From a virus: a DNA stretch of 29,454 nt. Under the pieces are notes generated by a model. That model ran no database searches, had not been told where the DNA came from, and saw only the letters and a list, made by a program, of their open reading frames with translations. The stretch lies in the IMG/VR virus record IMGVR_UViG_3300025132_000201, positions 1 to 29,454 of that record; one strand, given 5' to 3'. Position numbers and translations under genes: made by a program. Shown piece after piece: positions 7,334 through 29,034 of this stretch (position 1 is the first letter of the stretch; each line of letters begins with the position of its first letter).

Positions 7334-10300
7334 TTAAAATTTGTTAAAATCAGATAACTGCGAAGCATTATTACTCGTTTCTATATGTTTTATGGGTTTT
7401 TTCTTTTTCTCATTACTTTTAGGCTGAATTTCTTTTTCATCACTTCTCTTTCTTCCATCATAGTCCGGTAAAGTTTCTTCATTTGCTAAACGAGTAGGTC
7501 CACTTGGCGACTCTATAGGTGTAGCCAAATCTATACCTAATCCTTTTGGACCTGTCCATGTGATTTTTTCTTTAGAAAGTTGGTCTAAAACACGAGATAT
7601 TATTTCTAATGCTTTCTTAGTAGTTGGTTTTAGTAATCTATTATCATCTTTAGAATCAAGAATACCTGCTGATTGTTTATCTTGTCTTTCACGACTTGGT
7701 GGTTTACTTATATCTATATCAGTTTTTTGGATATGCCCACTAAACATTAATGGTGCTACAGAAGACCAATACGGCAATATGCTTTCAGCAAGAGTAATTG
7801 GATAACTTGTTTTTCTTAAATCACTTAATGAAGTATAAGGGTTTTCTAAATACCAACCGTTATCTACAGATACTACATCATATTCTACAGTATCTATATT
7901 TTTTATTATAACACTCAATTTATTATTTTCATATTCTATATCATGTGGGATTAAAATTGGACTGAAAGATTTTGTGAGTATATCTAAAGATTCTGCACTC
8001 GCCGCACCTTCTCCTTCTCCTTGACCTAATATCTCTTTCATTTGTACATTAAATATATTTCTTCCACCACGAGTCTTTTTAGTAATACCTGTTATAGAAA
8101 CTCTAACTATATCACCTACTTTGTATAATTCTTTTTGATTGTGTATAGTGCCTATATCCATATATTCATTATCTTTTATTGAAACTGCTCTATTACCTAA
8201 CTTAGAACCGTCAAGTATCGGACCTGCACCTAACTGATATGTGTAAGTGTTTTTTCCTTTTACATTTAAAATAATAAAATTATAATCTTTAGTCTTTCTA
8301 AGTACCATCCATTTAGGGTGTCTTCTTTCTCCTTTCATGTATGTAGACTTACTATCTCTAAGTAATATCACTTCGTGTTCTTTTTGTAAACTATCTACTG
8401 CATCTTTCAAACCTTCTTCATCAGTTAGTTTAGTATCATGTGGACCGGGTATGATAATATTTTCATGACTGTCAAATTGACTTCTTAATAATTTCATTCT
8501 TTCATATAGAAGCATATCACTCACATTATTATCATCGTAATTTAAAACATCAAAAATATTTATTTCGTCTTCTCCTAAAATACCATCAATAACATAGTTT
8601 CTCTCATTTAATTTAGATAAGTTTTCTTTAAATTTCTTTTTTAATCCTACTTTTTTACCATTTTCATCATATGCCGTTATACCATCGTCATTTACAATTA
8701 TGATTCTTTTGCCATCATACCACTTACTTACTACCCAAGAACCACTAAAACCTCTCATATGTTCAAGGTCATTTAATTCAAAAATACGATGCATAGGTCT
8801 TATTGGTGGTGACCATTTAACATCATCACTTTTAGTTAATAATACATCGGGATTAAGTAATGATGTAATGTATGTAGAAATTTCACTCATAGCAATTGTA
8901 GAGGGGTCATCGGAAGGAGATAGATAAGTTTCCATGTTTATACCTTGATGTGCAGACAATGGATTTTGAGGTGGAGGTAAAGTTGTAAGAACTTGTTGTG
9001 TAATATCTTTACCATGTAAATTATTCAAGGCTTCTTCACTTACTGTGTGATATAATCCTTCTTGAGCGTTTTCACCAACTATAGGCTCTCCATTCATATT
9101 AGTTTCAATTCCAAATGTAGGACTTGCTACTGTACCTTCGTGTATTGCACCACCACCAAATACATTATACATAGTAGCATTAGAAGGATTTACTTTACCT
9201 ATCTTAGTATTAGTCATTGTAGCAGATGATACTATTTCATTTTGTTGAGGCATAAATGCATTGTCAATGAAATTACCTTGTTCATCATGTAGCATTCTTT
9301 CATCTAATACTACTAAAGAATCAAGATTGTTTTTAGTTTGAAAAGTATTTCTTTTAATTCCTTTACCTGCGGTTTTTACTCCGTGTACATCAAAATCATT
9401 AGCATGAAATAATTCTAATCCACTATTTTTCATAGATGCTCCGTACTGTTGAGAATTTAATAATCGAGGAAACATTTGAGATATAGCGTGTATTTTATGC
9501 GCTTTCCAATTTTCATTTTCTTTACCTGCTCTTTTTTGGGCTAAGTTAATTGCTTCATGTAAATCTGTATCATGTAAGTCAAAATGGAATTTATCAGCAC
9601 TACTAAGATTTTCATAGTTAGAAGTCATAATATCTTTGTTAGGATTCTGCATATGTGAAAAATCCGCATTACCTATTTTAGAAATTGGTCCATTTCTAAG
9701 TAAATCGTTTATAGTAGATACATATAACGGGGCTTCTCTTTTATTAGATTCATCGAGTAAATTCCTTACATGTTCTTTCATAGCAGGGTTCTTTTGTAGT
9801 TTTAATGCGTCAATTACTTCATCAACAGACATATTACCGTCTATTACATTTCCATTATTAATTAAATGACCTGCTATAGCATTATGCTCATTAAGTTGTT
9901 TATTTTCTTTAATATCGAATTGTCTACCATAATTAGTAGTTGATAGATTATGTGCGTTAGTACTCAATATATGCTTTTGTGTATCAGCCAATAATTTTTG
10001 AGTATTATGTATGAATTTTACAGGGTCACTTGGGTCAAAAGCATCGGGTTGTTGTTCAATAACTAATGGCATTATTACATTTTTAGCATAGTCTACAATG
10101 GTATCATGATGAGCCTTGAGTGCTGATAAAGTTTGATTAGCACCTATTTTCCAATGAGATGAAGGTTTATCTTTTCTTTGTTGTATTTTATTTAAACCAC
10201 TTACTGCTTGCTTCATATCATCTCGTAAGCCCATTACATCTTCTTGAGATAAATTAGGATTTAATAGCATCTCATTAATTGAATCTATAGTTTCTCTAAA

Positions 10301-12883
10301 TCTGTTTTCTTTTTCAGTAGAAAGTTGTGTTCCTCCAAATTGTAATATTTGATGTATACCATCAAGTGTAGTTGTTTTAACTTTAGTAGGTGTATTAGAT
10401 TTCTCTTTCTTTTCTTGGTGCATACTTTGAACTATATTATTAAGACCGTTTTTTGCCTCTTCTAAATTTATAGGGTCAAAAGCAGTAAAATTATGATTCT
10501 CCATATAATAATCATGAAGTTTTTTGTAATCTTCGTTATTTTTATCTTGTTCTAAATTATTAATAAATGTGTTAATTGCTCTTGCATCTTTTGTACCTAG
10601 TATTTTACTTACAGAATTAATAAATCTTGTAGTAGGATAGTCTTTCATCTGCATTGTGTTTTTTACATTTGAATATGTCATAGGTTTAGAATCCCAATTC
10701 AAATAATCTTTGAGTTCTTGTAATTCTAAACCCGCACTTATTGATAAGTCACCATTTAAAAAATCTTTTAGTTGCCCTATTGCTTTTTTAGGCGGAGTGA
10801 AAGGATGGTGAGTTCTGCCTAAAAATGTATTAAAAATATGTGATTTAATTGCTTTTTCGTGCAAACGAGTATCACTTGGATTAGAACCATAATATGTTTC
10901 GGGCATAGGGGATATAGTAGGATTATGAGATTTATGACTAGCCATATGTATGTTAGAACTACCTAATTCTTTCTTTTCTTGTGGAGTAGCAGTTCTCATA
11001 AAATATTCATATTTAGGATTTAATGAAGACTTGTGTTCTGTATAGTTATTTTTATCACTTAAATTACTACTTTTACTTGTAGCAAAGGGAGAAAAAATAT
11101 TCACCATAGGATTAGGTAGGTTAGCATAGTCAAATTGCATTTTATCTGCTAAAAATTTACCTATTTCTTTTGTTTCCATAGGTGCAAAATGCATACCTAA
11201 AATAGTATTATTAGAATTTGTTTTAAAGAACTGCTTATTTGTCTTGTCCATTTCAAACATCGGTGATGTATTTTTATCGTGAGATGTTGAGTGATTCATC
11301 TCCATCCATGTAGCAGGTGCTAAATTCATTCCCGGTAGGTTTGCATATAATTGTTCATAGAATTTACCCGGTCCATAAGTAAATCCGTCTTTATCTGTAC
11401 GCCAATACTTAGGTTTTTCTTCATCGGGATGAGGACCATGTGGAGAAGTAAAGAATGAGCGATGGTTTCCCATATCTTTTGCTTTTTGTTGGAGTGTACT
11501 ATTGTTTTTTGCTTCTTCTTCTAACTTTCTTAAAATATCTATATTAATAATAGGTCCATCCATACTTCCATGTATAGGGTGATTTGACATTGGTTGATTG
11601 GTATTTGGGTCATAACCTGCTAAAAATAATACATCTTCCATAGAAAGTCTTGGTATTCTAGCCCCTCTTCTTAAATCTATTAAACCATATTCATCTTTAA
11701 AATCTTCTTTATGTAAATTTAATGCAGGTAATCTTTCAAATGGTTCTTGTTCTTCACTTATATATTTATTATTTATTTCATCTAAAATATATTGTGATAC
11801 AGGTTTATCTAAATAATTATTATTATCATGCATTACTTCTGCAACGGAAGATTGAATAAATCTATTTTCACCTTGACTATAATCTTCTTCATTAGATTGT
11901 TGTCTGTAATTAGAGTTTCTTCCAAAATGAGCATTAGACCTAATCATAAAATTCATTTCCGGTGTTCTTCTCAATAAATTATTATACGCAATACGAGCAG
12001 TAGGAATTTTTTCTCCATTAGGTAATGTAAGTGAAGACTTATCATCTATACCTTCATCTATGTGGTCTTGAATTGAATGTCTTTCTTCGGGAGTAAACCA
12101 TTCAAGACCATACATGAATCCATCTAAACCTAATTGACCATCTTTACTTGACCACTCTTTGACTTTATCATTAAAGTGCATATCTCTTAATTCATCTTCG
12201 GTAATGCTTTCATCTTGAGGATTTTCTTTTCGCCATCTTCTAAAATCTCTTTCATACAAATCGTATTGATGATTACCAACAGTACCGAATGTATTTATAT
12301 CTCCTAAAATTGGTATAGTCTTTTTACCTAATTTATATCCTGTCACTAATGGACTATTAGCCTCGGTCATTTCTTTAAACCACGCTCGCTCCATATCTTT
12401 TTCTTCTTTCCCATAACCACCCGGTCCTAAAGCCCTAAGTATCTCAAACATATTTGGTAAACCACTATGAGAATTTATTTGTCTTAAAGGATGATTCATT
12501 TCATGATAAGGAAAATGATGGTCTTTGTATGAAGAAGTAGGTTTAGCCATATATTTAGGAAAAATACTATGACTTCTACCTTCATCTTTAACTAACCCGT
12601 TTGCCCATACATGATTAGTAGGTTCACCAAATGTAGGCTTTGAAGCCAACATATACCCTTCACCTTCTTTCAAAGGAATATCTACTTTATATTCTGCTTC
12701 TTCATCTTTTTTGAGTATACTTTCAGCAGTATCTTTAAGACTTAAAGATAAATTATCTTTGGGAGATTTTTCTAATGTTTCCCAAGCCATTATGTATTCT
12801 GCGGCATTACGAGATAAATCTAAACCATCATGTAATGAGATTAAGAACTCATTTTTAGAAATATTAAATTCATCTTCAAACAT
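7334..12883 (-). CDS. Giant 1849-aa virion-cluster protein with degenerate DNA-ligase-like domain
   Basis: The largest gene in the window. Residues 1-1350 are rich in Asn, His, Met and Lys, helical, and match no family I recognise. Residues ~1365-1610 resemble the nucleotidyltransferase and OB domains of ATP-dependent DNA ligases: KWYDGKR (1387-1393, motif I), YDENGKK, YVIDGILG (motif III), INIFDVL (IIIa), EVILLRD (IV), and WMVLRK (V), then an OB-like strand region. Key residues differ: the motif I Lys is displaced by one position, the motif III Glu of DGE is Ile, and the motif IV and V Lys are Arg or Val. The C-terminal 230 residues are Lys/Ser-rich. It lies between portal and protease, so a virion protein, possibly DNA-associated, is likely; an active ligase is not indicated. 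GGTGA precedes the ATG. Confidence 0.7.
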   Translation of the reverse strand: MFEDEFNISKNEFLISLHDGLDLSRNAAEYIMAWETLEKSPKDNLSLSLKDTAESILKKDEEAEYKVDIPLKEGEGYMLASKPTFGEPTNHVWANGLVKDEGRSHSIFPKYMAKPTSSYKDHHFPYHEMNHPLRQINSHSGLPNMFEILRALGPGGYGKEEKDMERAWFKEMTEANSPLVTGYKLGKKTIPILGDINTFGTVGNHQYDLYERDFRRWRKENPQDESITEDELRDMHFNDKVKEWSSKDGQLGLDGFMYGLEWFTPEERHSIQDHIDEGIDDKSSLTLPNGEKIPTARIAYNNLLRRTPEMNFMIRSNAHFGRNSNYRQQSNEEDYSQGENRFIQSSVAEVMHDNNNYLDKPVSQYILDEINNKYISEEQEPFERLPALNLHKEDFKDEYGLIDLRRGARIPRLSMEDVLFLAGYDPNTNQPMSNHPIHGSMDGPIINIDILRKLEEEAKNNSTLQQKAKDMGNHRSFFTSPHGPHPDEEKPKYWRTDKDGFTYGPGKFYEQLYANLPGMNLAPATWMEMNHSTSHDKNTSPMFEMDKTNKQFFKTNSNNTILGMHFAPMETKEIGKFLADKMQFDYANLPNPMVNIFSPFATSKSSNLSDKNNYTEHKSSLNPKYEYFMRTATPQEKKELGSSNIHMASHKSHNPTISPMPETYYGSNPSDTRLHEKAIKSHIFNTFLGRTHHPFTPPKKAIGQLKDFLNGDLSISAGLELQELKDYLNWDSKPMTYSNVKNTMQMKDYPTTRFINSVSKILGTKDARAINTFINNLEQDKNNEDYKKLHDYYMENHNFTAFDPINLEEAKNGLNNIVQSMHQEKKEKSNTPTKVKTTTLDGIHQILQFGGTQLSTEKENRFRETIDSINEMLLNPNLSQEDVMGLRDDMKQAVSGLNKIQQRKDKPSSHWKIGANQTLSALKAHHDTIVDYAKNVIMPLVIEQQPDAFDPSDPVKFIHNTQKLLADTQKHILSTNAHNLSTTNYGRQFDIKENKQLNEHNAIAGHLINNGNVIDGNMSVDEVIDALKLQKNPAMKEHVRNLLDESNKREAPLYVSTINDLLRNGPISKIGNADFSHMQNPNKDIMTSNYENLSSADKFHFDLHDTDLHEAINLAQKRAGKENENWKAHKIHAISQMFPRLLNSQQYGASMKNSGLELFHANDFDVHGVKTAGKGIKRNTFQTKNNLDSLVVLDERMLHDEQGNFIDNAFMPQQNEIVSSATMTNTKIGKVNPSNATMYNVFGGGAIHEGTVASPTFGIETNMNGEPIVGENAQEGLYHTVSEEALNNLHGKDITQQVLTTLPPPQNPLSAHQGINMETYLSPSDDPSTIAMSEISTYITSLLNPDVLLTKSDDVKWSPPIRPMHRIFELNDLEHMRGFSGSWVVSKWYDGKRIIIVNDDGITAYDENGKKVGLKKKFKENLSKLNERNYVIDGILGEDEINIFDVLNYDDNNVSDMLLYERMKLLRSQFDSHENIIIPGPHDTKLTDEEGLKDAVDSLQKEHEVILLRDSKSTYMKGERRHPKWMVLRKTKDYNFIILNVKGKNTYTYQLGAGPILDGSKLGNRAVSIKDNEYMDIGTIHNQKELYKVGDIVRVSITGITKKTRGGRNIFNVQMKEILGQGEGEGAASAESLDILTKSFSPILIPHDIEYENNKLSVIIKNIDTVEYDVVSVDNGWYLENPYTSLSDLRKTSYPITLAESILPYWSSVAPLMFSGHIQKTDIDISKPPSRERQDKQSAGILDSKDDNRLLKPTTKKALEIISRVLDQLSKEKITWTGPKGLGIDLATPIESPSGPTRLANEETLPDYDGRKRSDEKEIQPKSNEKKKKPIKHIETSNNASQLSDFNKF

Positions 12884-14267: not shown

Positions 14268-16055
14268 TTATGCACCTCTAAATCTTCGTGCATTTTGGAG
14301 AGCATTAACATTTTGTTGTCCAAGTGATTGAGGCGGTCCTCTTTGTTGTACACTTGTCACAGGCGCACCGCTTCCCGGTGATGTTCTTCTTTGGGGTGCA
14401 GCAGGTCCACGGTTGCGTATTCCCATACCTTCACCGCCGGGTTGAGAAGGTGGCATTGGCATTGTACCTTGTGGCATACCCGGTGGCATTCCTCTCATCA
14501 TTGGTGCGCCACCCATAGGCATTCCACCACCCATAGGCATTCCACCACCCATAGGCATACCCGGTGGCATTCTACCTCCGCCCGGAGGCATACCGCCCGG
14601 AGGCATACCGCCCGGAGGTGCGCCTTGTTGTGCTTGAGGTTCGGGTTTACGATATACAAATTTAATATCATTACTTGAATCACCATCAATAAGTTCGGGT
14701 ACAAATCCGAGTTGAGCCATTCTTTGAGCCACATTCAACTCTTGTTCATCTCGGCGTAGTCTTGTAATTTCATCTTCTTCTTCATTTGGATAAAGAGTTA
14801 ATTTCCAATCAAATACCCCCATTTGTTTTAAAATCTTAGGAAATAATAATTCTGTATATATTTTTTGTCCAAACTCTACTGCACGATTTGTGACAAGAAT
14901 TTGTAATCCTTCATTATTTAAACCACCCGATTTACCGTTGTCTACCATAAATATACTCGATACACCATAATATGCGGCAATACGATTTCTTATTTCATCA
15001 CGAACTGCCATATATTGCATTTCTTCTAATGTGTCCATAAATTTTATCCAATTCACTCCACCTCTTCCTGTAGATGATTCAATACCAACTTTAGGGATAT
15101 AGTGAGGGTCACGCTCCATTTTTTCATCAACTGATTTCCAAAAAGATTTCATAGATTCAAGGTTATCTGTTGTGACTGATATAATTCCTTTAGGCATTCT
15201 TCTCTTTTGATAAGCAGTATACATGTAGTTATCCATAGCAGTAAGTGTCATGGCTTGCCTCCACATTGTATTAACAGGTGAGCGACCATAGAGTTTTGAT
15301 GGATTATATTTACTTATATGTATGACTTCTCCCTCTACAAAATATTGTGTTTTACCACTACCCGCCATATTCACATAATGTACATCTTGTAAATCACTAC
15401 CACAAATCTCACATTTATCATCTTCTGCATGAGTCTTTACTTGGTCACGATGGATTAAACATGTCTTATAGCGACCTCCCCTTACACCTCTTTTATCCGC
15501 TACTATACGCATAAAGATAGGGTCACCTCTAATTAATTCTTTAACACGATAAAAAGATACTTCTTTAGATTCGGGGTCAATATAATATTCTTTAACAAAT
15601 ATTAAAAATGCATCATCAACAATATTTAAGTCATTTTCAATTTCATGTAAAACATGCATAAACTGTTGTTCCATACTGTTTTCTTGTTTTAATAACCACT
15701 TAGCATAAACCATTTCATCTGCATCGGGTTTTCTTACCGGACTTTCACAAATATTACATTGTTGCACTTCATGTTGAAATTCTTCTCCACATTCTGTACA
15801 TTTTTGATGAAAGGTTTTTTCCCAATAATAACCTCTTCTAAACATTTCTTGACGGAGTTTAGATAATACAGTTCTAAGAATTAGACATTCTGTACTCACT
15901 GCATACAAAGCGGGAATAGTAATTCCTTGCGCCATAACAGGTTCTTGAATACCACTTGTCCAAAGTGGCATAGTAGGAGTAGGTGATGACTTACGCTTGA
16001 ATGGTTTACTTAATGTCGTTAAGAAACGACTTATTCTACTTTCATCATCTGCCAT
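14268..16055 (-). CDS. HK97-type portal protein with zinc-ribbon insertions
   Basis: A 595-residue portal, the dodecameric ring at the packaging vertex. Residues 30-80 carry the usual N-terminal pattern (LWTSGIQEP, then STECLILRTVLSKLRQE). Two Cys/His sites interrupt the body: C86-x2-C89/C100-x2-C103 and C199-x2-H202/C215-x2-C218, each probably binding zinc. Residues ~240-440 follow the standard wing and stem (YFVEGEVIHISKYNP, YGRSPVNTMWRQAM, YYGVSSIFM, a long helix and crown-entry segment). Residues ~475-565 are Pro/Gly/Met repeats. Its start overlaps the stop of the LAGLIDADG gene (TAATG). The gene is the normal portal size apart from the insertions and tail. Confidence 0.8.
   Translation of the reverse strand: MADDESRISRFLTTLSKPFKRKSSPTPTMPLWTSGIQEPVMAQGITIPALYAVSTECLILRTVLSKLRQEMFRRGYYWEKTFHQKCTECGEEFQHEVQQCNICESPVRKPDADEMVYAKWLLKQENSMEQQFMHVLHEIENDLNIVDDAFLIFVKEYYIDPESKEVSFYRVKELIRGDPIFMRIVADKRGVRGGRYKTCLIHRDQVKTHAEDDKCEICGSDLQDVHYVNMAGSGKTQYFVEGEVIHISKYNPSKLYGRSPVNTMWRQAMTLTAMDNYMYTAYQKRRMPKGIISVTTDNLESMKSFWKSVDEKMERDPHYIPKVGIESSTGRGGVNWIKFMDTLEEMQYMAVRDEIRNRIAAYYGVSSIFMVDNGKSGGLNNEGLQILVTNRAVEFGQKIYTELLFPKILKQMGVFDWKLTLYPNEEEDEITRLRRDEQELNVAQRMAQLGFVPELIDGDSSNDIKFVYRKPEPQAQQGAPPGGMPPGGMPPGGGRMPPGMPMGGGMPMGGGMPMGGAPMMRGMPPGMPQGTMPMPPSQPGGEGMGIRNRGPAAPQRRTSPGSGAPVTSVQQRGPPQSLGQQNVNALQNARRFRGA
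14509..14620. repeat. In-frame tandem repeats in portal C-terminus
   Basis: Two imperfect tandem arrays lie inside the portal gene: an 18-base unit (CCACCCATAGGCATTCCA-like, from ~14509 to 14560) and a 15-base unit (CCGCCCGGAGGCATA, ~14577-14620). They encode Pro/Gly/Met repeats. The units are multiples of three, so copy-number change would keep the frame. Confidence 0.75.
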
Positions 16056-17362
16056 TACAAACTCTCCGCATAACTACCTATTGTATCTGCATCCAAGTTC
16101 CATTTACTCAAGAAACTATCGGCCTTTTTCTTATCATCTTTCCAATTATTATAAGTCACAAGTTGATACAATTCATTTTTTCTCATTTTGTCTTTTTCAT
16201 CTACAAAAGATAATACCGCTTTAGCCTGTAAAGACTTCATCTTTAGATGGGGTAAAATCCCTTTTAGTAATTGTCTTAAATCATTTTTAGATGAGAATAT
16301 AAGTCTATGTTGGCTTCTTACACTTTTTTTATGTATTCTTTGATTTAGAACTAAACGACCACAACCTAATGCTTTGTGTAGTTCTTCACATTGTAATCTA
16401 CCTCTATCACCTGTAGCAATAAAAGTTGCTCTTGGTTCGCCTCTTTCAGTAATAAATATACTACCGTCAGCATCAAGAAAACCTGCGGCATAAGCCCAAA
16501 TATCTTTTATAATTAAACCATGAGTATCTAACTTAACATAATTACCACGAGAAGAGGCTTTGTAAATATCTACTTCTTCTCCATACATTTTAATTAACAT
16601 ACTTATTTTACTTGGTGTAATAGATTTATGAAGCACCCCAACCCCTCTACGCACTAACTCTCGACTACCTAAAGAACCCGATTTAGTAAGTTCTTCGGAA
16701 ATAAACTCTAAAGCGTTTTTATCACTTTTAGAGAGTGAATCTATTTGATGTAATGTGTTAGACCACATTTTACGAGCATCTTTTTTTAGTTGTAAAGCAT
16801 TAGCCCATTCTTTCTGTTCATCAATACCCCAATCTGTATTATCATTTAATACATTTAAAACAGTCATTGATTTAAGATATAATTGACAGGCTTTTTGTAA
16901 TGATGATGAGCGAGATTCACCAAACTTACGGAGTGCTTTTAGACTCCTATCATTAAGGCCGATGTTTTTTATTACATCTTCTAAACCTTCACTCCAAGAT
17001 AAATTATTAATTGTAGCATTTACTTCCATCGCTTTTATAGTACGAACATCATCTATAATAGCATCAATACTTTCACGGTTATTTTTATCTACCCTTCGCA
17101 TTTTTCTACACATACGAATAATAGAATTAGCATCTTTACCATATGTACTTTCTAACCAACCATCACCATTAGGTGCAAAATTATAAGATTTAATATCATC
17201 ATTAAAGAATATACTTGAAGATTTTACCACAGGTGCTTTATTTACATTAAAATTTGGGTGTTGAGATAAATTCGATAATACACTTTTAGTTAAGTCATCA
17301 GCAGGGTGTATACCTAAATCGTACTCATCTCCGAGTAAAGCACTTCCCCACATATTGACCAC
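16055..17362 (-). CDS. LAGLIDADG-domain protein with unrecognised N-terminal region
   Basis: A 435-residue protein. Residues ~285-405 contain AYAAGFLDADGSIFI, a clear LAGLIDADG motif, then a strand-helix pattern (ATFIATGDRGRLQ, ELHKALGCGRLVL, HRLIFSSKNDLRQLL, HLKMKSLQAKAVLSF), typical of one LAGLIDADG half-domain. Only one such motif is seen, so it would act as a dimer if it is an active endonuclease. Residues 1-280 are mainly helical and unfamiliar. It is neither within a split gene nor bordered by visible intron ends, and it sits in the portal gene cluster with coupled translation to portal. A domesticated structural or regulatory role is possible. Starts at GTG 17362 or ATG 17353. Confidence 0.65.
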   Translation of the reverse strand: MVNMWGSALLGDEYDLGIHPADDLTKSVLSNLSQHPNFNVNKAPVVKSSSIFFNDDIKSYNFAPNGDGWLESTYGKDANSIIRMCRKMRRVDKNNRESIDAIIDDVRTIKAMEVNATINNLSWSEGLEDVIKNIGLNDRSLKALRKFGESRSSSLQKACQLYLKSMTVLNVLNDNTDWGIDEQKEWANALQLKKDARKMWSNTLHQIDSLSKSDKNALEFISEELTKSGSLGSRELVRRGVGVLHKSITPSKISMLIKMYGEEVDIYKASSRGNYVKLDTHGLIIKDIWAYAAGFLDADGSIFITERGEPRATFIATGDRGRLQCEELHKALGCGRLVLNQRIHKKSVRSQHRLIFSSKNDLRQLLKGILPHLKMKSLQAKAVLSFVDEKDKMRKNELYQLVTYNNWKDDKKKADSFLSKWNLDADTIGSYAESL

Positions 17363-22895: not shown

Positions 22896-24529
22896 CCGAA
22901 ATGCCCCCTCTTACCGGATAAATGCCCCGCAGGGTCAAGACCTAAACGACTTGAATTTGTTTCTAAATTCTGTGTTGGTCCATCATTCTTTTCTTCTTCA
23001 TCTTCATGTTGTTGTACACCGGCAGGGTGAGTAGGTACATGTCCATCTTCAAAAGCAGAACCTCCACCTTGAACATATTTCATTAATTTATTTCTTTTTC
23101 TTGATGCGGCGATTAATCTACGCATAAGTTCTAACATTTCAGTTCTATTAGCGTAGCGATTAGTTTTGAGTATATCACTTTGAGTTCTTTCTTCACTCAT
23201 CATCATAGTAGAGGATGGTGCGGGCATACTTGGTACGCTACTCATAGGTGGTGCAACTTGAGGTGGCATAGGCGGTGCAGGTGGCATAACAGGTCTAATT
23301 CTTGGCATACGAGGTCGGCGTAGTCTTGTAAGAGATGGTTGTCTCATTTGCCCTGCTTGTCCGGGTAGCATTCCTGTAAGTCTACCTCCACCTGTAGGTC
23401 CGGCTTGAAAACTTCTTGCACTATGTCTTGCATGTGGTGAAAATGTATTTCTTACACCACCAAGAATTTTTTGTGCTTCTTGTTGCCCCATATATTGACG
23501 ATATTTTTGTGGGTCTTTACTCATAGGTTGTTTTGTAGCAATACCACGGTGACTCATTTCAACAGATAAATGTGGTTTCATTAAACCTGTTTTTCTTCCA
23601 CCTTTGATACCACGCATCCTTGATTTAAACCGGCGCATAGTAGCACCTGCACCGCCGGATTGTCCACCGGGCGGTTTCTTGAATTGTCCTGTAGATGGTC
23701 TAAATTGTTGTCTTGCTTCACGGCGACGGCGAGCCTGTATAGTTTTTGGAGTTTCACGCTTTAGTAAATCACTCCAAGCATCATTCATCGGTTTACTTCT
23801 GTGGAGGTCTTGAAAATTGGTATCAAAGCCAGTATTAGAAACAGGATTACCTTGAGCGTTCAAATCGTTTTCAACTATTCGGTAGTTGTACTCATCAGTT
23901 AAATCCGCATCAAGTGGCTCACCACCCATAACCATGTCATTTATCTTTTCCTTTAATCTCTTATTATTCATCAACGCATGAGGTCTTGGAGTGTTGGGAT
24001 TCATTACTTCGGGTCTTACTTCCTCGTCAAAGTATCGCTTAGTATCTTCATCTGTACCGTCGCCAACATCATGCGTATCACAGGGTTTTTCCTTCAACAA
24101 CTCACTCCAAGCATCTTCCATTGGTTCGCCTGTTCTAACTGCGGAATTACCCGTACCCATCGCTGAACCTGTGCCTGTTTTTGCACCTGTGGCTAAGTCA
24201 AGTAAATGTCCACGACTACCTGCCGGTCCACCTTGAAGTCCTATCTCACGCTCGTCATCACGCTTATTCCCATCATCTAATCCTTCTTCTGTAGGTAATG
24301 ATGGACCGCTACCTAATCCTTGAGATGGTTTAATTTTAATATGCTTAATATCCTTTAATTTGGTTCGTCTTTCTTCTTCTTTAATTTGTTTATCCTCTCG
24401 ACGCTTATCTGCATCTTCGGGAGAAGTAGGGCTATATTTATCGCCGTCTTCATTTGCTGATGAATACATAGTAGATGATTCACTTCTTGGTGAATACATT
24501 CTTGTGTCCGAACCACGACCCATAACCAT
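22892..24529 (-). CDS. Disordered Pro/Met/Arg-rich protein with two DAW motifs
   Basis: A 545-residue protein with little predicted fold. Residues ~1-250 are charged and Ser/Gly-rich; residues ~260-360 are Arg/Gly-rich basic (MRRFKSRMRGIKGGRK); residues ~395-450 are Pro/Met repeats. The motif PMEDAWSELLKEKP (from M137) is repeated at M248 (PMNDAWSDLLKRETP), an internal duplication with the peptide found at C-termini of other proteins here. The start overlaps the stop of the upstream gene (TAATG) with GGGGTAGAATA ahead. A scaffold-like or DNA-condensing role is suggested by composition only. Confidence 0.6.
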   Translation of the reverse strand: MVMGRGSDTRMYSPRSESSTMYSSANEDGDKYSPTSPEDADKRREDKQIKEEERRTKLKDIKHIKIKPSQGLGSGPSLPTEEGLDDGNKRDDEREIGLQGGPAGSRGHLLDLATGAKTGTGSAMGTGNSAVRTGEPMEDAWSELLKEKPCDTHDVGDGTDEDTKRYFDEEVRPEVMNPNTPRPHALMNNKRLKEKINDMVMGGEPLDADLTDEYNYRIVENDLNAQGNPVSNTGFDTNFQDLHRSKPMNDAWSDLLKRETPKTIQARRRREARQQFRPSTGQFKKPPGGQSGGAGATMRRFKSRMRGIKGGRKTGLMKPHLSVEMSHRGIATKQPMSKDPQKYRQYMGQQEAQKILGGVRNTFSPHARHSARSFQAGPTGGGRLTGMLPGQAGQMRQPSLTRLRRPRMPRIRPVMPPAPPMPPQVAPPMSSVPSMPAPSSTMMMSEERTQSDILKTNRYANRTEMLELMRRLIAASRKRNKLMKYVQGGGSAFEDGHVPTHPAGVQQHEDEEEKNDGPTQNLETNSSRLGLDPAGHLSGKRGHFG

Positions 24530-25209
24530 TATTCTACCCCCATGTTTTCAGCCAACTGCTTTTTAATTCTTGTCCAAGTTTCCGGGCTTTCTTTACCAAG
24601 TTCTAATTGTAGAATATTGATAGTTTGATTAACTTGTTGATTATCAGTCTTAGCCCCCCATTGGTCTTGAAACCGTAGTAGGTCTTTTACCGTTTCTCTA
24701 ACTTCTTTGTGAAGTATTACTGCATCACGAACAAAACCATCTTCATGAACTGTACCTTCATCTAATAGTTCGGATAACTTTTGATTTAATTTTTCTGCAT
24801 TTGAGCGAAGTACTTGTATTTCTTGACCGGCGGCTAATGCTACTTCATATGCCGCAGTTTTTTGCACTAAAGGTTGAAAATGATTTTTCATATGATTATA
24901 AACTGTTCTTTCAGCAATTCCGAGTTCATCTGCTATTACTTGAGTATCTGCGCTACCTTGAAAATATTCATTTTCATATTCTGCTCTTTTAGGACTAGCG
25001 CATACAGGACAAGAAGGATTGGCCGCCATATGGTAATCTCCCATATGATTACGGAAATGTCTATCAGCAGTATTGGCTCTCCATCCCATTGTTTTATCTA
25101 ATTCTTTAGGTGAAATATGACCGTTGAGAAGTTGTTCTTCTATTTCATCTCTACTTTCACTTGTACAAAGTTTACAAGACCGTTTAACAACACGCTCCGC
25201 CCCCTGCAT
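24529..25209 (-). CDS. Duplicated zinc/helix-turn-helix protein, terminase small-subunit candidate
   Basis: A 226-residue protein. Residues 12-55 and 67-110 are tandem copies of one unit: C12-x2-C15...H51-x3-H55 and C67-x2-C70...H106-x3-H110, with all four ligands offset by exactly 55. In the second copy the residues before the His pair (VIADELGIAERTVYNHM) are a clear helix-turn-helix; in the first it is altered (ELDKTMGWRANTADRHF). Residues ~130-190 are coiled-coil-like. The C-terminus is acidic/polar. It is the first gene of the assembly operon, before terminase. Small terminases bind packaging sites with helix-turn-helix domains, so the role is plausible; a transcription regulator is an alternative. 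Confidence 0.6.
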   Translation of the reverse strand: MQGAERVVKRSCKLCTSESRDEIEEQLLNGHISPKELDKTMGWRANTADRHFRNHMGDYHMAANPSCPVCASPKRAEYENEYFQGSADTQVIADELGIAERTVYNHMKNHFQPLVQKTAAYEVALAAGQEIQVLRSNAEKLNQKLSELLDEGTVHEDGFVRDAVILHKEVRETVKDLLRFQDQWGAKTDNQQVNQTINILQLELGKESPETWTRIKKQLAENMGVE

Positions 25210-25243
25210 GTACGGGCTTAGGTGTACCCCTTACAAAACGCTT

Positions 25244-25561
25244 ATGGATAAATATAACTTGGAAAGTACTATGTGGAGGGCTAAGAGAGTAGCGGGTGTA
25301 CCATTGAATATGTATACATTGAAAAGTTTAACTCAAGCAGTAAAAGATACTGTAAAAGGTGATATTTGTCCACCTGTATTATATGATTTAAGAAAGCAAG
25401 TTTGTGAATCATGTCCTTACGGCGGTAAAAGATGTGACTTGTGTGGTTGTTATATTAACACTAAAATAAACTTACTAAATTCCACTTGTCCTATTAACAA
25501 ATGGCCTTCACCGAGTAATACGAGTATAAATGCTAGTAAGCATAATAAAACTAGCAAATAA
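25244..25561 (+). CDS. Cys-rich phage-type protein, sole plus-strand gene
   Basis: A 105-residue protein. Residues 1-50 are helical and basic (MWRAKRVAGVPLNMYTLKSL); residues 54-82 contain C54-x2-C57, C64-x2-C67-x-C69 and C82, followed by PINKW. This CxxC...CxxCGC...CPxxKW pattern is common in small proteins of tailed viruses and would bind zinc. The start is uncertain: ATG at 25244 is chosen, but ATG at 25208 is in frame and its bases overlap the start codon of the divergent gene. It runs into the 3' end of the gene at 25508-25759 by 54 bases. Divergent orientation sets it off from all neighbours; the role is unknown. Confidence 0.6.
   Translation: MDKYNLESTMWRAKRVAGVPLNMYTLKSLTQAVKDTVKGDICPPVLYDLRKQVCESCPYGGKRCDLCGCYINTKINLLNSTCPINKWPSPSNTSINASKHNKTSK
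25248..25257 (-). promoter_or_regulatory. TATA-box candidate for assembly operon
   Basis: On the minus strand TTATATTTAT lies about 43 bases upstream of the ATG at 25209. An archaeal TATA box typically sits about 26 bases before transcription start, giving a leader of about 15 bases. It falls within the first codons of the plus-strand gene. The match is short and could be chance. Confidence 0.35.
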
Positions 25562-25759
25562 TCCCACTAAGAAATATGATACTGTAGTTGAAGGCATAGA
25601 ACCTCCTTTGAATATAAGTATCATACCCATACATACAATCATAGAAATTAATTGTACCATAATCATATCAATAATTACGCTTCTATTCGGATTAAGTACA
25701 TCTAATGTGGATGCTGCAAATGATTGTGGTATGTATGTTGTGTAATCTTTATCTATCAT
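25508..25759 (-). CDS. Two-helix membrane protein
   Basis: An 83-residue protein with two membrane segments, residues ~28-50 (VIIDMIMVQLISMIVCMGMI region) and ~57-77 (SYFLVGLFASFIMLTSIY), joined by a short KGGSMPST turn. The N-terminus is polar and ends before the first helix; the C-terminus is short and basic. AGGAAGATAAT precedes the ATG. It ends operon A. A small hairpin membrane protein in a virus could be a holin, but nothing specific supports this; the final overlap with the plus-strand gene is 54 bases. Confidence 0.6.
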   Translation of the reverse strand: MIDKDYTTYIPQSFAASTLDVLNPNRSVIIDMIMVQLISMIVCMGMILIFKGGSMPSTTVSYFLVGLFASFIMLTSIYTRITR

Positions 25760-25760
25760 A

Positions 25761-26384
25761 TTATCTTCCTCCTGTTATTATAGAGCGAGCGAAACTACCT
25801 ACTCCGCCACCTACTTTTTCCATCATTCCTTCACTTTGTAATGCGGCTAAAGCCCCTCCCATCATAGACTGTTGGGCTAGTGCGGCTAATTGTTGTTGAG
25901 TCATATCACTTTGATTCACTACTTGTTGTGCTGATGCTTGTAAATTAGTAAATTGACTTTCTATATTTTCTGCGCTCATAGTTTGTAAATTAGCAGGTAA
26001 AGTAGTTGTATCTAATTTTAATGTACCATCATCTTCATTTATAACAAATGTAGCACCTCTTAATATTTCTAATACACTTAGTGTCACAACACTACTCATC
26101 ATTTCAATTAATACTCCCATTTGACTACTAGCAACATATCTTTCAATAGTTGCTTGTTGTTTTAATAATTCCATTTGAATTTCTATTTCACTCGGTGGTT
26201 GAATAGGTTGTTGTACATATTGATTGGCTTGTTGTTGTCCTCCAAAGATACCTGCTACAAATGGACTTACTTGTTGTTGTTGCCCCCACGGATTAGCATT
26301 TTGCACCGGCATTTGTCCTTGTTGAGATGGTACACCTAAGTTTAGTGTACCTGTATTTTGGTTATTTCCGTTCAATCTTAACAT
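25761..26384 (-). CDS. Gln-rich protein of operon A
   Basis: A protein of about 207 residues. Residues 1-65 are Gln/Asn/Pro/Gly-rich and disordered; the middle (IEIQMELLKQQATIERYVAS onward) forms amphipathic helices with a hydrophobic stretch (MGVLIEMMSSVVTLSVLEIL) that is borderline for a membrane helix; the C-terminus is Gln/Ala/Met-rich and Gly-rich. ATG at 26384 has GGAGTGAT upstream; GTG at 26393 overlaps the stop of the upstream gene and is an alternative. No family is recognised. Confidence 0.55.
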   Translation of the reverse strand: MLRLNGNNQNTGTLNLGVPSQQGQMPVQNANPWGQQQQVSPFVAGIFGGQQQANQYVQQPIQPPSEIEIQMELLKQQATIERYVASSQMGVLIEMMSSVVTLSVLEILRGATFVINEDDGTLKLDTTTLPANLQTMSAENIESQFTNLQASAQQVVNQSDMTQQQLAALAQQSMMGGALAALQSEGMMEKVGGGVGSFARSIITGGR

Positions 26385-26389
26385 CTCTA

Positions 26390-27328
26390 TCACTCCATCG
26401 GAAGGGTATCTACCATATTTGTGTTTTGATTAACTACTTCTTCTACTTGTTGGTTTAACATGGCTTGAAAAGCAGGTGTAGGTTGATTAAACATAGCCAA
26501 CTCATGCTGAAATATTCTTAAATCAAAACTTACAATAGTAATATCATTTTGATTAGTCATAGGATTAGTATAATACTGAATGTTAATTCCTTTAGTTTTT
26601 CTTGCATCTTTTTCTAATTCAGCAAAAAATGGCTCGTATTTTTTCAACATTTCCGGTGTAGGGTCGTTTTTCTTTATTGCAGTGATAGGAACTGTGACAA
26701 TTGATACTCCTTTTTTTACTCTATCTCTAAGTCTTCTTGGATTCGATTCACTTAATTTATCTTCTTCTGCTTCCCACTTACAAAGTAAATGGTATAAATG
26801 CATGTGTTCGGGGCAGTATGTACCACGCATTTTACGGCCACTTGTCACTTTTTCACGAGCAACAAACGCTTCCGGCTCTCCTGTGACCGGATTTTTCCAA
26901 TACAAATCCCAAAGCGATTCTCCTGTATCTTCATCAGTAATTTTAGCATATAAATTATCATATTGAATTAAATTAGCACAATCACAACCGTCTACAACAC
27001 ATACATGACTTTGTTTATTATAACGATATTTTCTTCCAAAAAATAACCTAAAAGGATTAAATATATTTCTTTTAGCAGGTGTAAGTAATTTGTATGCTTG
27101 TTTAATGTCTTTTCTTCTTGCTTTATGTGGGTTAGGGTGTCTACTTGGATAAAAATTTACTTTAGGAACTTGTAAATCAGTTTTTTGTGATGCTTCTTGC
27201 ATCGCCGCCTGTGCAGTTGCTTGTTCTATTAACGCTCTATGAGTTAAAGTATCATTACCTTGTTGGCTTAAAGAAAGTAAATGCGCTTGGTTTACTTGTG
27301 CTAAACTTTGTTGATTACCATTGTACAT
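26390..27328 (-). CDS. Cys/His protein of operon A, probable zinc site
   Basis: A 312-residue protein. Residues 1-50 are Gln-rich helical. A basic region (~60-105) precedes a Cys/His site: C110, C115 and C117, then C172-x2-H175-x-H177 and C183. This CxxxxCxC...CxxHxH...C arrangement suggests one or two zinc ions. Residues ~220-290 have a strand-like end (NIQYYTNPMTNQNDITIVSF). The C-terminus is Gln/Asn-rich. AAGGAGGTTTGAAT precedes the ATG at 27328, so that start is favoured over the in-frame TTG at 27334. The function is unknown. Confidence 0.6.
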   Translation of the reverse strand: MYNGNQQSLAQVNQAHLLSLSQQGNDTLTHRALIEQATAQAAMQEASQKTDLQVPKVNFYPSRHPNPHKARRKDIKQAYKLLTPAKRNIFNPFRLFFGRKYRYNKQSHVCVVDGCDCANLIQYDNLYAKITDEDTGESLWDLYWKNPVTGEPEAFVAREKVTSGRKMRGTYCPEHMHLYHLLCKWEAEEDKLSESNPRRLRDRVKKGVSIVTVPITAIKKNDPTPEMLKKYEPFFAELEKDARKTKGINIQYYTNPMTNQNDITIVSFDLRIFQHELAMFNQPTPAFQAMLNQQVEEVVNQNTNMVDTLPME

Positions 27329-27330
27329 AT

Positions 27331-27501
27331 TCAAACCTCCTTATTTACTTCAAGATAAAATTTTCCATTATCAGTTTTTAGTTTCCAAGATATTTTATCC
27401 CCTGCTTTTATACCTAATAATTCAGCCATTGGATTAGGTACTACGGTTCTTACGCACTTTGTGTTTTTATTTACTGCTATAATTTTTGTTATTTTTTTCA
27501 T
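27331..27501 (-). CDS. AbrB/SpoVT-type DNA-binding regulator
   Basis: A 56-residue protein, a single swapped-hairpin AbrB-like domain: MKKITKIIAVNKNTKCVRTV, then VPNPMAELLGIKAGDKISWK, and KFYLEVNKEV. The Val-Pro-x-x-x-x-x-x-L-G-I-x-x-G-D core is diagnostic, and such domains bind DNA as dimers. AGGTGATATT precedes the ATG, which is chosen over a longer in-frame start inside the upstream gene. Such proteins often act on their own promoter; the ATGAAC repeats at 29083-29193 upstream of operon A are possible targets, but this is inference. Confidence 0.75.
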   Translation of the reverse strand: MKKITKIIAVNKNTKCVRTVVPNPMAELLGIKAGDKISWKLKTDNGKFYLEVNKEV

Positions 27502-27509
27502 AATATCAC

Positions 27510-28226
27510 CTATGTTGATAATAAATCTATTAATGTAGTTTCTACATTCCATCCTATTCTTGTTGCCATAAAAGACCTACGAGTAGGAATACCGGCTTTT
27601 TGTAGTCTCACTAAGTCATCTCTAAATGGGTCAAACACTTTATGTTCACCTATTCTGTTTTGTTGCCAAAGCATAGCGGCAGTATCATCAAAAAATCTAT
27701 CAGCCTTATTTGCTACAAGCATAACAAGTTTTGGTGCATATTTTTTTCCTTTCCATCTACTACGCAAATTACGATACCTATACTGTCTGTTAATTATACA
27801 ATCTACTAAGTATTTGAATCCCGCTATTTGTTGTAATGCTTCATCTCCACCTTTGAATGCTCTTTCATCAAACATATAGACTACTGCTTCTACTTGACGA
27901 TTAACCATGTCATCTATCCATAATGACCAAAAACGCTCTTGTCCACCTAAGTCAGCAGAATATACTACTCTTCTATCTCCTTTCCAAGATATACGCTTTC
28001 TTGTAGGCTTGGGTAAAAGATATTTACCTAGTAATCTAAAATGAGCCGTTCTATCTTCTTCGGGTATTTCTTCCATTTCACCCGGAGTAGTCATATAACG
28101 GTCAAGAGTAGTTTTACCTACCATAGCCGCACCGTATATTCCGACTTTTCTTGGTCGCCATGAATTATATAGATTCTGCCCCCATACCGCCACACCAACT
28201 AAAGCAGTACCGGCAGGTTCAACCAT
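27510..28226 (-). CDS. Ras/Arf-like small GTPase
   Basis: A 238-residue GTPase. G1: GAAMVGKT (G32 to T39, GxxxxGKT). G3: SADLGGQERF (D92-x2-G95-Q96), with Gln at the position of Ras Q61. G4: VANKAD (N173-K174-x-D176). G5-like: FMATRIGWN (A221-T222-R223). G2 is not obvious. The inserts between strands (for example after G1, and residues 120-165) are longer than in Ras. Residues 5-20 are hydrophobic and could touch a membrane. GGTGACTAAA precedes the ATG. It sits between a one-helix membrane protein and the AbrB regulator. Such switches act at membranes in eukaryotes and some archaea; the partner here is unknown. Confidence 0.8.
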   Translation of the reverse strand: MVEPAGTALVGVAVWGQNLYNSWRPRKVGIYGAAMVGKTTLDRYMTTPGEMEEIPEEDRTAHFRLLGKYLLPKPTRKRISWKGDRRVVYSADLGGQERFWSLWIDDMVNRQVEAVVYMFDERAFKGGDEALQQIAGFKYLVDCIINRQYRYRNLRSRWKGKKYAPKLVMLVANKADRFFDDTAAMLWQQNRIGEHKVFDPFRDDLVRLQKAGIPTRRSFMATRIGWNVETTLIDLLST

Positions 28227-28227
28227 T

Positions 28228-28470
28228 TTAGTCACCACTAATCCAATTATCTATTTTATTCCAAAACCATTCAACTGTATTTTCCCATATTGAATCACCG
28301 GATTTTAATTCAAAAGCACTTGTAGTAAGCACCGCAATTAAAACAAAAAGTATAGTTCTTAACCAACCTACGCCTTTTTCATAATATGTATCTAACATAT
28401 TTTGAGTATGCATAGCCCGTAATGTTGCTTCTGTAGAATCATCAGTAGGCGTTTTGAAAATACGACCCAA
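28228..28470 (-). CDS. Single-helix membrane protein
   Basis: An 80-residue protein with one membrane segment at residues 35-53 (GWLRTILFVLIAVLTTSAF). The N-terminal 34 residues are polar; the C-terminal ~27 are acidic and Trp-rich (WENTVEWFWNKIDNW) and could lie along a membrane surface. The TTG start has GAGGTGTTAGT upstream. It ends two bases before the GTPase start, and could serve as its membrane partner, which is inference. Confidence 0.6.
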   Translation of the reverse strand: MGRIFKTPTDDSTEATLRAMHTQNMLDTYYEKGVGWLRTILFVLIAVLTTSAFELKSGDSIWENTVEWFWNKIDNWISGD

Positions 28471-28479
28471 ACTAACACC

Positions 28480-29034
28480 TCACTTTTTCTTTTTAGTGTC
28501 TTTGTCTTCTTCTTCATTAATTCCTAAATTAATAGGTTGGTCTACTTCAACATCATGATTAGGAATACCGGGATTAAACTGTCCAGTATCGTATTGTGAA
28601 ACTATAGATTGTGAACCACCCGGTACACCCCAACTTGGAGGCATTTTACCGGGGTTTTGTTCCATCCAACGCAATTCACGCTCAAGTTGTGCTTCTTGCA
28701 TTCTCATTTCCATTTCTACTCTACGATTATCAAAATTACTTTGCATTTGTTTATATCTTAACTCTCTTGATTTTTGCATTCCGGTATTTCTTACTCTTTC
28801 TTGCATTTCTTGTTCAAAAAACATCTTAAAGAAATAATATGCTATACCTTGTACAAAAAATGCGGCCATAGCGTAAGTAAATCCATTTAACATAGCGGTT
28901 TCACTTTTTAACCAAAGGTCTGCATCAAATACACCTATTCCTAATCCTACTAAGGCTGATTGGGCTAAAATAAGCCCCATAAGTCTAATTTCTGCATCCG
29001 AGTCTTGTCCTGTTCCTTGCATGTTGCTCACCAT
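28480..29034 (-). CDS. Two-helix membrane protein with cytoplasmic coiled coil
   Basis: A 184-residue protein. Two hydrophobic segments (about residues 16-36, LMGLILAQSALVGLGIG region, and 49-70, GFTYAMAAFFVQGIAYYFF) precede a long charged helix (~72-125, with QEMQERVRN, MQSNFDNRRVEMEMRMQE) and a Gly/Pro region ending in Glu and Lys runs. It is the first gene of operon A. Two starts are possible: ATG 29034, with a TATA-like box 18-25 bases upstream (leaderless), or ATG 29022, with GGTGA at the right spacing. The long helix could bind a partner such as the GTPase. No family is recognised. Confidence 0.6.
   Translation of the reverse strand: MVSNMQGTGQDSDAEIRLMGLILAQSALVGLGIGVFDADLWLKSETAMLNGFTYAMAAFFVQGIAYYFFKMFFEQEMQERVRNTGMQKSRELRYKQMQSNFDNRRVEMEMRMQEAQLERELRWMEQNPGKMPPSWGVPGGSQSIVSQYDTGQFNPGIPNHDVEVDQPINLGINEEEDKDTKKKK

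Follow-up and report, generated by a model that had tools for sequence, protein, structure and literature searches.

The DNA analysed here, called the window throughout, is a stretch of 29,454 nucleotides of viral origin (positions 1 to 29,454 of IMG/VR record IMGVR_UViG_3300025132_000201). Near its end, an ORF of 238 codons on the minus strand (27510..28226) is predicted to encode a small GTPase of 238 aa, on the basis of the reading frame, of the small GTPases matched in fold and profile searches, and of its retention in two virus clades. The ATG is located at 28226 and the stop codon at 27510-27512, and a GTG at 28238 is a possible alternative upstream start. A plus-strand reading of 27510-28226 was ruled out because it contains 17 stops. 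The original prediction had listed the G1, G3, G4, and G5 motifs at this locus without naming a strand. Their order and positions were confirmed on the minus strand, where the motif residues read G32-x4-G37-K38-T39, D92-L-G-G-Q96, N173-K-A-D176, and A221-T-R223.

From the N-terminus, the protein begins with a predicted hydrophobic helix (residues 4-23; 28158..28217, minus strand, as for all the following motifs) that carries small residues at positions 6, 11, and 16. This helix was placed by the hydrophobicity scan, by conservation, and by a low-confidence part of the structure model (pLDDT 52-65), and is weakly amphipathic (moment at most 0.32). It is followed by the G1 motif or P-loop, GAAMVGKT (residues 32-39; 28110..28133), and then, past the P-loop helix and ahead of switch I, by a T-x-G-E motif (residues 47-50; 28077..28088). 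A candidate G2 Thr/Ser is residue 75 (28002..28004). The G3 motif DLGGQ (residues 92-96; 27939..27953), the G4 motif NKAD (residues 173-176; 27699..27710), and the G5 motif ATR (residues 221-223; 27558..27566) complete the set.

When the ordered motifs G1...G3...NKxD were searched for with a loose pattern, only one of the 35 stop-free frames of at least 100 aa in the window contained them, and this frame was the GTPase ORF. By chance, the same set arose 20 times when the residues of this ORF were shuffled 200,000 times, and 15 times among 70,000 shuffled window ORFs. Conservation across 92 diverged homologues from the two clades is stronger proof of a GTPase than these shuffling statistics. 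In all 92 sequences, G32, G37, K38, T39, T40, L41, T47, G49, and E50 were invariant, as were D92, G95, W100, W103, D106, N173, K174, and D176. With T47, G49, and E50 invariant in both clades, T-x-G-E is a mark of this viral GTPase family's own. Within the N-terminal helix, G11 was invariant and G6, L9, and V10 were nearly so in both clades. Residue 75 was T or S in every sequence and falls right before strand beta-2 in the model; its assignment to switch I (G2) is a guess. In the second clade, G4 reads NKYD or NKFD and G5 reads SAK, which are the textbook forms of these motifs. The median dN/dS values were 0.036 and 0.048 for sequence pairs 90-99.5% identical, so the GTPase is under purifying selection, with dN/dS of about 0.04.

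A Gln matching Ras Q61 had been pointed out in the protein; it is not a feature of the family. Position 96 varied within the first clade (n = 60; Q in 28, E in 24, D in 7, and H in 1), and it was E in 32 of 32 second-clade sequences. In many members, E, D, or H takes the place of the catalytic Gln; together with a switch I that the model depicts as rebuilt by an insert, this would be consistent with a pseudo-GTPase, that is, a nucleotide-binding structural protein that has lost GTP hydrolysis. We consider this very improbable, since the P-loop Lys/Thr, the G3 Asp, and NKxD are all invariant, and since Rup group 1 also lacks this Gln, its supply in trans by a GAP having been suggested (PMC4316618).

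The structure was modelled with AlphaFold2 using an alignment of both clades, and this model (pLDDT 83.6, pTM 0.83) replaced an earlier one made from 55 close relatives (pLDDT 74). In a Foldseek search against the PDB, the top 50 matches were all of the Rab/Rho/Ras type, with E of about 1e-8 to 7e-7 and a probability of 1.0. The TM-scores against PDB small GTPases were 0.4-0.6; these low values are probably due to the inserts that the model contains at two sites, from the P-loop to beta-2 and from beta-4 to beta-5. The combined profile of the family matched SRbeta, Rab33B, an archaeal GTP-binding protein, and Arl8/Arl10 at E of 0.002-0.06, and it also reached small GTPases of Asgard archaea with E down to 1e-9. 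The Pfam families Roc (17.1 bits vs a cut-off of 27), MMR_HSR1 (20.9 vs 21.9), Ras, SRPRB, and Arf (PF00025; 10.9 vs 22.3) matched the GTPase, every one below its cut-off, and small_GTP scored 18.8 bits vs 42.5. These cut-offs are a convenience of the curated library and not a biological criterion of the Ras superfamily. The remaining Pfam matches were few and evident chance hits.

No competing P-loop family was found in the profile matches or among the top 50 Foldseek matches in the PDB. This included packaging and partition ATPases, a match to which had been named at the outset as the result that would speak against a small GTPase. The profile search and the structure prediction that had been proposed as checks both pointed to small GTPases. 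The family is almost certainly a real family of small GTPases, and its motifs and its modelled fold indicate that the protein is a genuine, divergent member of the Ras superfamily. The label "Ras/Arf-like small GTPase" is therefore kept in part: fold and profiles agree with a small GTPase of the Ras superfamily, and "Arf-like" is not retained because the Pfam matches all lie below cut-off. Placing the protein in a single family (Ras, Arf, SRbeta, or Roc) was given up because the profile scores were too close.

The comparison with known groups illustrates this position. As in Arf, Sar, and SRbeta, a D-x-G-G-[QE] G3 motif is followed by W (LW in the first clade), the P-loop reads GKTT, and a helix is predicted at the N-terminus; SRbeta and Arl8/Arl10 are also among the best profile matches. 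The N-terminal helix of the Arf family is amphipathic and myristoylated, and the one predicted here is weakly amphipathic. Unlike those proteins, the viral GTPase stays below the Pfam cut-offs, is matched by Foldseek preferentially to Rab/Rho/Ras, and has an insert between the P-loop and switch I. With Rup and MglA it shares being a prokaryotic GTPase of the Ras superfamily, and with Rup group 1 also the missing G3 Gln (PMC4316618). MglA itself was ruled out by the invariant G3 Asp (D92), which MglA lacks (PMC4316618), and no MglB-like family was present among the neighbour genes scanned. Separately, Asgard genomes (L375, L376, and L377) were observed to encode proteins of about 300 aa in which a small domain at the N-terminus is combined with an Arf-like GTPase domain; the G3 region of the latter, DxGGQxDFWxLW, is close to the viral DxGGQERFWNLW.

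The window also encodes a terminase large subunit (phrog_38, E 4e-63), a portal (phrog_18178, E 3e-67), a major head protein (phrog_24667, E 1e-56), and a prohead protease. The portal, terminase, and major head protein bear out the original view that the GTPase is encoded in the genome of a tailed virus. This head protein shares about 33% identity with its counterpart in Druskaviridae (HCTV-5, HVTV-1). PolB and a chaperonin were found in 20 of 20 relatives 91-115 kb long, and one first-clade chaperonin that was checked is a thermosome, adjoining a TFB-like gene. Second-clade contigs carried a chaperonin in 15 of 15 cases, which was GroEL in the one checked. Magroviruses are viruses of marine group II archaea, and one of their clades has a thermosome and others have GroEL (PMC5332604; PMC10768690). 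The features that define Magrovirales, namely an HK97-type head-tail module, PolB, a chaperonin, and a genome of 90-115 kb, were all found in this group, the window itself being a 29-kb fragment. The window thus comes from the genome of a magrovirus (order Magrovirales), with Poseidoniales as the predicted host.

Next to the prohead protease gene, the virion module contains a gene for a protein of 1849 aa (7334-12883, minus strand) that has no PHROG match. An ATP-dependent DNA ligase domain lies near its C-terminus (residues 1441-1525, E 4e-6), and from this ligase domain next to the protease, together with the features above, the window was placed with the thermosome-bearing magroviruses; it probably belongs to magrovirus group A (Apasviridae-like). 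The portal protein (14268-16055, minus strand) contains an internal CxxC stretch that resembles a zinc ribbon (at about residues 80-110), and it ends in a long tail of Gly/Pro/Met-rich repeats. Between the portal and terminase genes, a protein of 435 aa (16055-17362, minus strand) has a C-terminal half resembling a LAGLIDADG-type homing endonuclease (GFLDADGSI; phrog_5046 'HNH endonuclease', E 5e-8) and an unrelated N-terminal half. One second-clade contig, IMGVR_UViG_3300021958_000021, is 184733 bases long, about twice the usual length, and bears two chaperonin genes 90 kb apart; it is probably two joined genomes or an assembly repeat.

The GTPase gene belongs to a late cassette of five genes, which encode a two-TM protein, a one-TM protein, the GTPase, a zinc protein, and p210; in the window, these genes lie on the minus strand. 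The gene for the one-TM protein (80 aa; 28228..28470), identified by a hydrophobicity peak, ends 1 nt ahead of the GTPase ATG and adjoins the GTPase gene in 198 of 200 first-clade loci. It is preceded by the gene for a membrane protein of 184 aa (28480..29034), in which hydrophobicity predicts about two TM segments (one clear peak) in the hydrophobic N-terminal part, and the tail is charged and probably helical. The positional equivalent of this protein in the second clade has 128 aa. On the other side of the GTPase gene, a Cys/His protein of 314 aa with the pattern C...C...TYCPEH (26390..27334) is probably zinc-binding; it matched no Pfam family, and hhalign aligned it to its second-clade counterpart with a probability of 95% and E 3e-8. 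The last member, p210 (25761..26393), has no assigned function, was present in 199 of 200 first-clade loci, and matched p217 of the second clade weakly (hhalign E 0.002). Thus, the zinc proteins of the two clades are homologous and p210 and p217 perhaps so. Between the TM proteins of the two clades no sequence homology was detectable by hhalign (probability <1%); they agree in size, topology, and position.

Directly after the GTPase gene, the window has an optional gene for a putative AbrB/MazE-like small DNA-binding protein (27331..27501, minus strand; MazE_antitoxin E 0.0015, below cut-off), which was found in 105 of 158 loci. Beyond p210, a protein of 83 aa with two TM segments predicted from hydrophobicity (25508..25759, minus strand) is the conserved next gene in the first clade according to the locus comparison. 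The packaging/head genes then begin with a putative terminase small subunit (24529..25209, minus strand; phrog_2538 E 5e-4 and HTH matches). A small Cys-rich ORF (CESCP...CDLCGC / CEICP...CRECGC) was also noticed between the 83-aa protein and the terminase small subunit. It lies at 25124-25561 on the plus strand, opposite to the late-gene strand, and a distant relative has it in the same place (L061, 12575-12829, minus strand).

The core cassette genes were found in 198-200 of 200 first-clade loci. The first-clade order, that is, two-TM protein, one-TM protein, GTPase, (AbrB-like protein), zinc protein, p210, 83-aa TM protein, and terminase small subunit, was kept in 157-158 of 158 loci; in both of these locus counts (158 and 200), certain contigs appear repeatedly. 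The second-clade order, two-TM protein, one-TM protein, GTPase, zinc protein, and p217, was observed in 81-83 loci, out of 283 loci counted for both clades together. In the first clade, the cassette is located upstream of the terminase genes and opens the packaging/head operon. In the second clade, it follows the genes for the protease and the major head protein and a further three small genes, and the connector (phrog_17057) and tail genes come next. The same gene order at different sites of the virion module indicates that the cassette moves as a unit, and the most fitting interpretation is that it functions as one in the late phase of infection.

Relatives of the GTPase numbered more than 170 in IMG/VR, with identity down to about 56% within the first clade. 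The second clade comprised 188 viral stretches, about 32% identical to the first, on contigs mostly of 92-97 kb. The search for homologues in other virus contigs that had been proposed initially therefore located the GTPase in two magrovirus clades. Every long contig examined of the window's clade had the gene. Among 22 contigs chosen by the head protein, it was present in 6 of 6 longer than 70 kb and in 5 of 16 shorter ones. The eleven contigs that bear the MCP and lack the GTPase were all at most 66 kb long, and none had the neighbouring zinc gene; hence, the region most simply lies outside those fragments. By tblastn, no GTPase homologue was found in cultured phages in about 50,700 phage records, a set that does not include the named magrovirus records ON649702 and OR863078.

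A profile of the first clade alone recovered two copies of the GTPase on additional MAG contigs (E 4e-29 and 2e-28), and these copies led to the second clade. They are the clean evidence that the GTPases of the two clades are related; the hhalign score between the two GTPase sets is inflated, as each set included sequences from the other clade. Some matches came from MAGs labelled 'Asgard' and 'Maricaulis' (L082, L083, L285, and L286). A cellular origin was rejected, as these contigs hold the whole virus cassette, which means that they are mis-binned magrovirus contigs. Owing to such mis-binning, a database search would wrongly call the viral GTPase alphaproteobacterial or Asgard.

The position of the cassette bears on the role of the GTPase. 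One explanation is that the protein acts in virion assembly and has no membrane role, either as a morphogenesis factor or as a virion component, and may serve as a checkpoint when heads are completed or joined to tails. The second-clade cassette lies directly between the head genes and the connector/tail genes and the first-clade cassette opens the packaging/head operon, in line with this explanation, and a chaperonin in 35 of 35 long contigs tested indicates that these viruses supply assembly helpers of their own. However, the two small membrane proteins directly adjoin the GTPase in both clades, and Druskaviridae, whose head protein is related, showed no such gene by tblastn. Moreover, to our knowledge, known tailed-virus morphogenesis uses no Ras-type GTPase. 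We regard a role in assembly alone as unlikely, albeit with an appreciable chance of being correct.

A second explanation arises from cellular archaea. In Haloferax, the small GTPase ArvA (OapA) drives vesicle formation, and its gene cluster also encodes ArvB and the zinc-ribbon protein ArvC, for which a GAP role was proposed (PMC10927574). Like ArvA, the viral GTPase is a single-domain protein in a euryarchaeal setting, with a (predicted) N-terminal helix before the P-loop and a zinc protein in the gene cluster; unlike ArvA, it is viral and not cellular, and its cluster includes two small TM proteins. ArvB (PF09846) and ArvC (PF09845) were detected in none of 22 long magrovirus contigs, and both were detected in the Haloferax volcanii controls. 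By this analogy, the viral cluster appears to resemble the ArvA cluster in outline and not to be a member of the same kind. The GTPase might nevertheless compete with or reprogramme the small-GTPase system of the host, such as that for vesiculation, division, or motility, as the function of euryarchaeal ArvA in vesicle formation (PMC10927574) and the Ras/Rab homologues of giant viruses (PMC4569851) would allow. Such host manipulation seems improbable, because the gene is part of the virion module, near-universal, and slowly evolving, unlike a typical accessory takeover gene, and because the ArvB and ArvC families are absent from the virus genomes.

The best explanation overall, for which we judge the chances to be about evenly balanced, is a GTP switch at the host membrane that belongs to the late gene set of magroviruses. 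A membrane switch in assembly or exit is suggested by the predicted N-terminal helix, by the TM proteins encoded alongside, and by the placement among late genes, and a role in membrane assembly or egress is put forward tentatively, at somewhat less than an even chance. The GTPase would alternate between GTP and GDP states at the host cytoplasmic membrane. It would be brought there by its hydrophobic helix at the N-terminus and by the two small membrane proteins that its neighbour genes encode; the helix likely contacts the membrane or the TM proteins. In the GTP state, it may recruit or order a partner, the candidates being the zinc protein and p210, and the step acted on would be particle assembly at, or release through, the membrane. 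GTP hydrolysis would then reset the switch; as the family does not conserve the catalytic Gln, a partner probably assists in this step. The analysis found no effector, GEF, or GAP for the viral GTPase. The synteny of the cassette with the virion genes may, against a membrane role, reflect no more than late expression. A more specific proposal, which is rather doubtful, is a virus-specific, Arf/SRbeta-like membrane switch in which the TM proteins are anchors and the zinc protein is the analogue of a GAP or GEF, forming an egress or membrane-assembly machine that archaeal tailed viruses would possess and that has no bacteriophage counterpart.

Virus-encoded small GTPases have been described in other settings. 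When predicted structures of viral proteins were searched, the best 50 matches to the GTPase were, as listed, giant-virus proteins, mostly Ras/Rab/Ran or translation GTPases. The mimivirus Rab GTPase R214 has been proposed to help the virion acquire its inner membrane (PMC4569851), and mirusviruses, for which a phylum has been proposed and whose virion module links them to herpesviruses, carry Ras-related GTPases (PMC10132985). The magrovirus protein resembles the Rab/Ras/Ran GTPases of giant viruses, including R214, in being a small GTPase encoded by a virus. Those proteins derive from eukaryotic Rab-type genes and belong to another viral realm, whereas the magrovirus family is distinguished by the T-x-G-E motif, the inserts, and its place in the core of its virus group. 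The original statement that no tailed virus is known with a Ras-family switch accordingly stands for tailed viruses of prokaryotes and fails for viruses at large, given the giant viruses and mirusviruses (PMC4569851, PMC10132985). No description of a small GTPase in tailed viruses of prokaryotes was found, and an earlier annotation in the main magrovirus papers is possible; the magrovirus literature searched, which did not cover Philosof 2017, Zhou 2023, and Prabhu 2025, contained no mention of a GTPase.

With this family, the range of Ras-type switches, described in the giant viruses of eukaryotes and in mirusviruses, comes to include archaeal tailed viruses. In the surface ocean, magroviruses are a widespread group of archaeal viruses, and the near-universal, slowly evolving GTPase with its membrane proteins provides a concrete set of candidate genes for their assembly or exit. 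Taken together, the findings point to a so far undescribed switch that these viruses use in the making or release of their particles.
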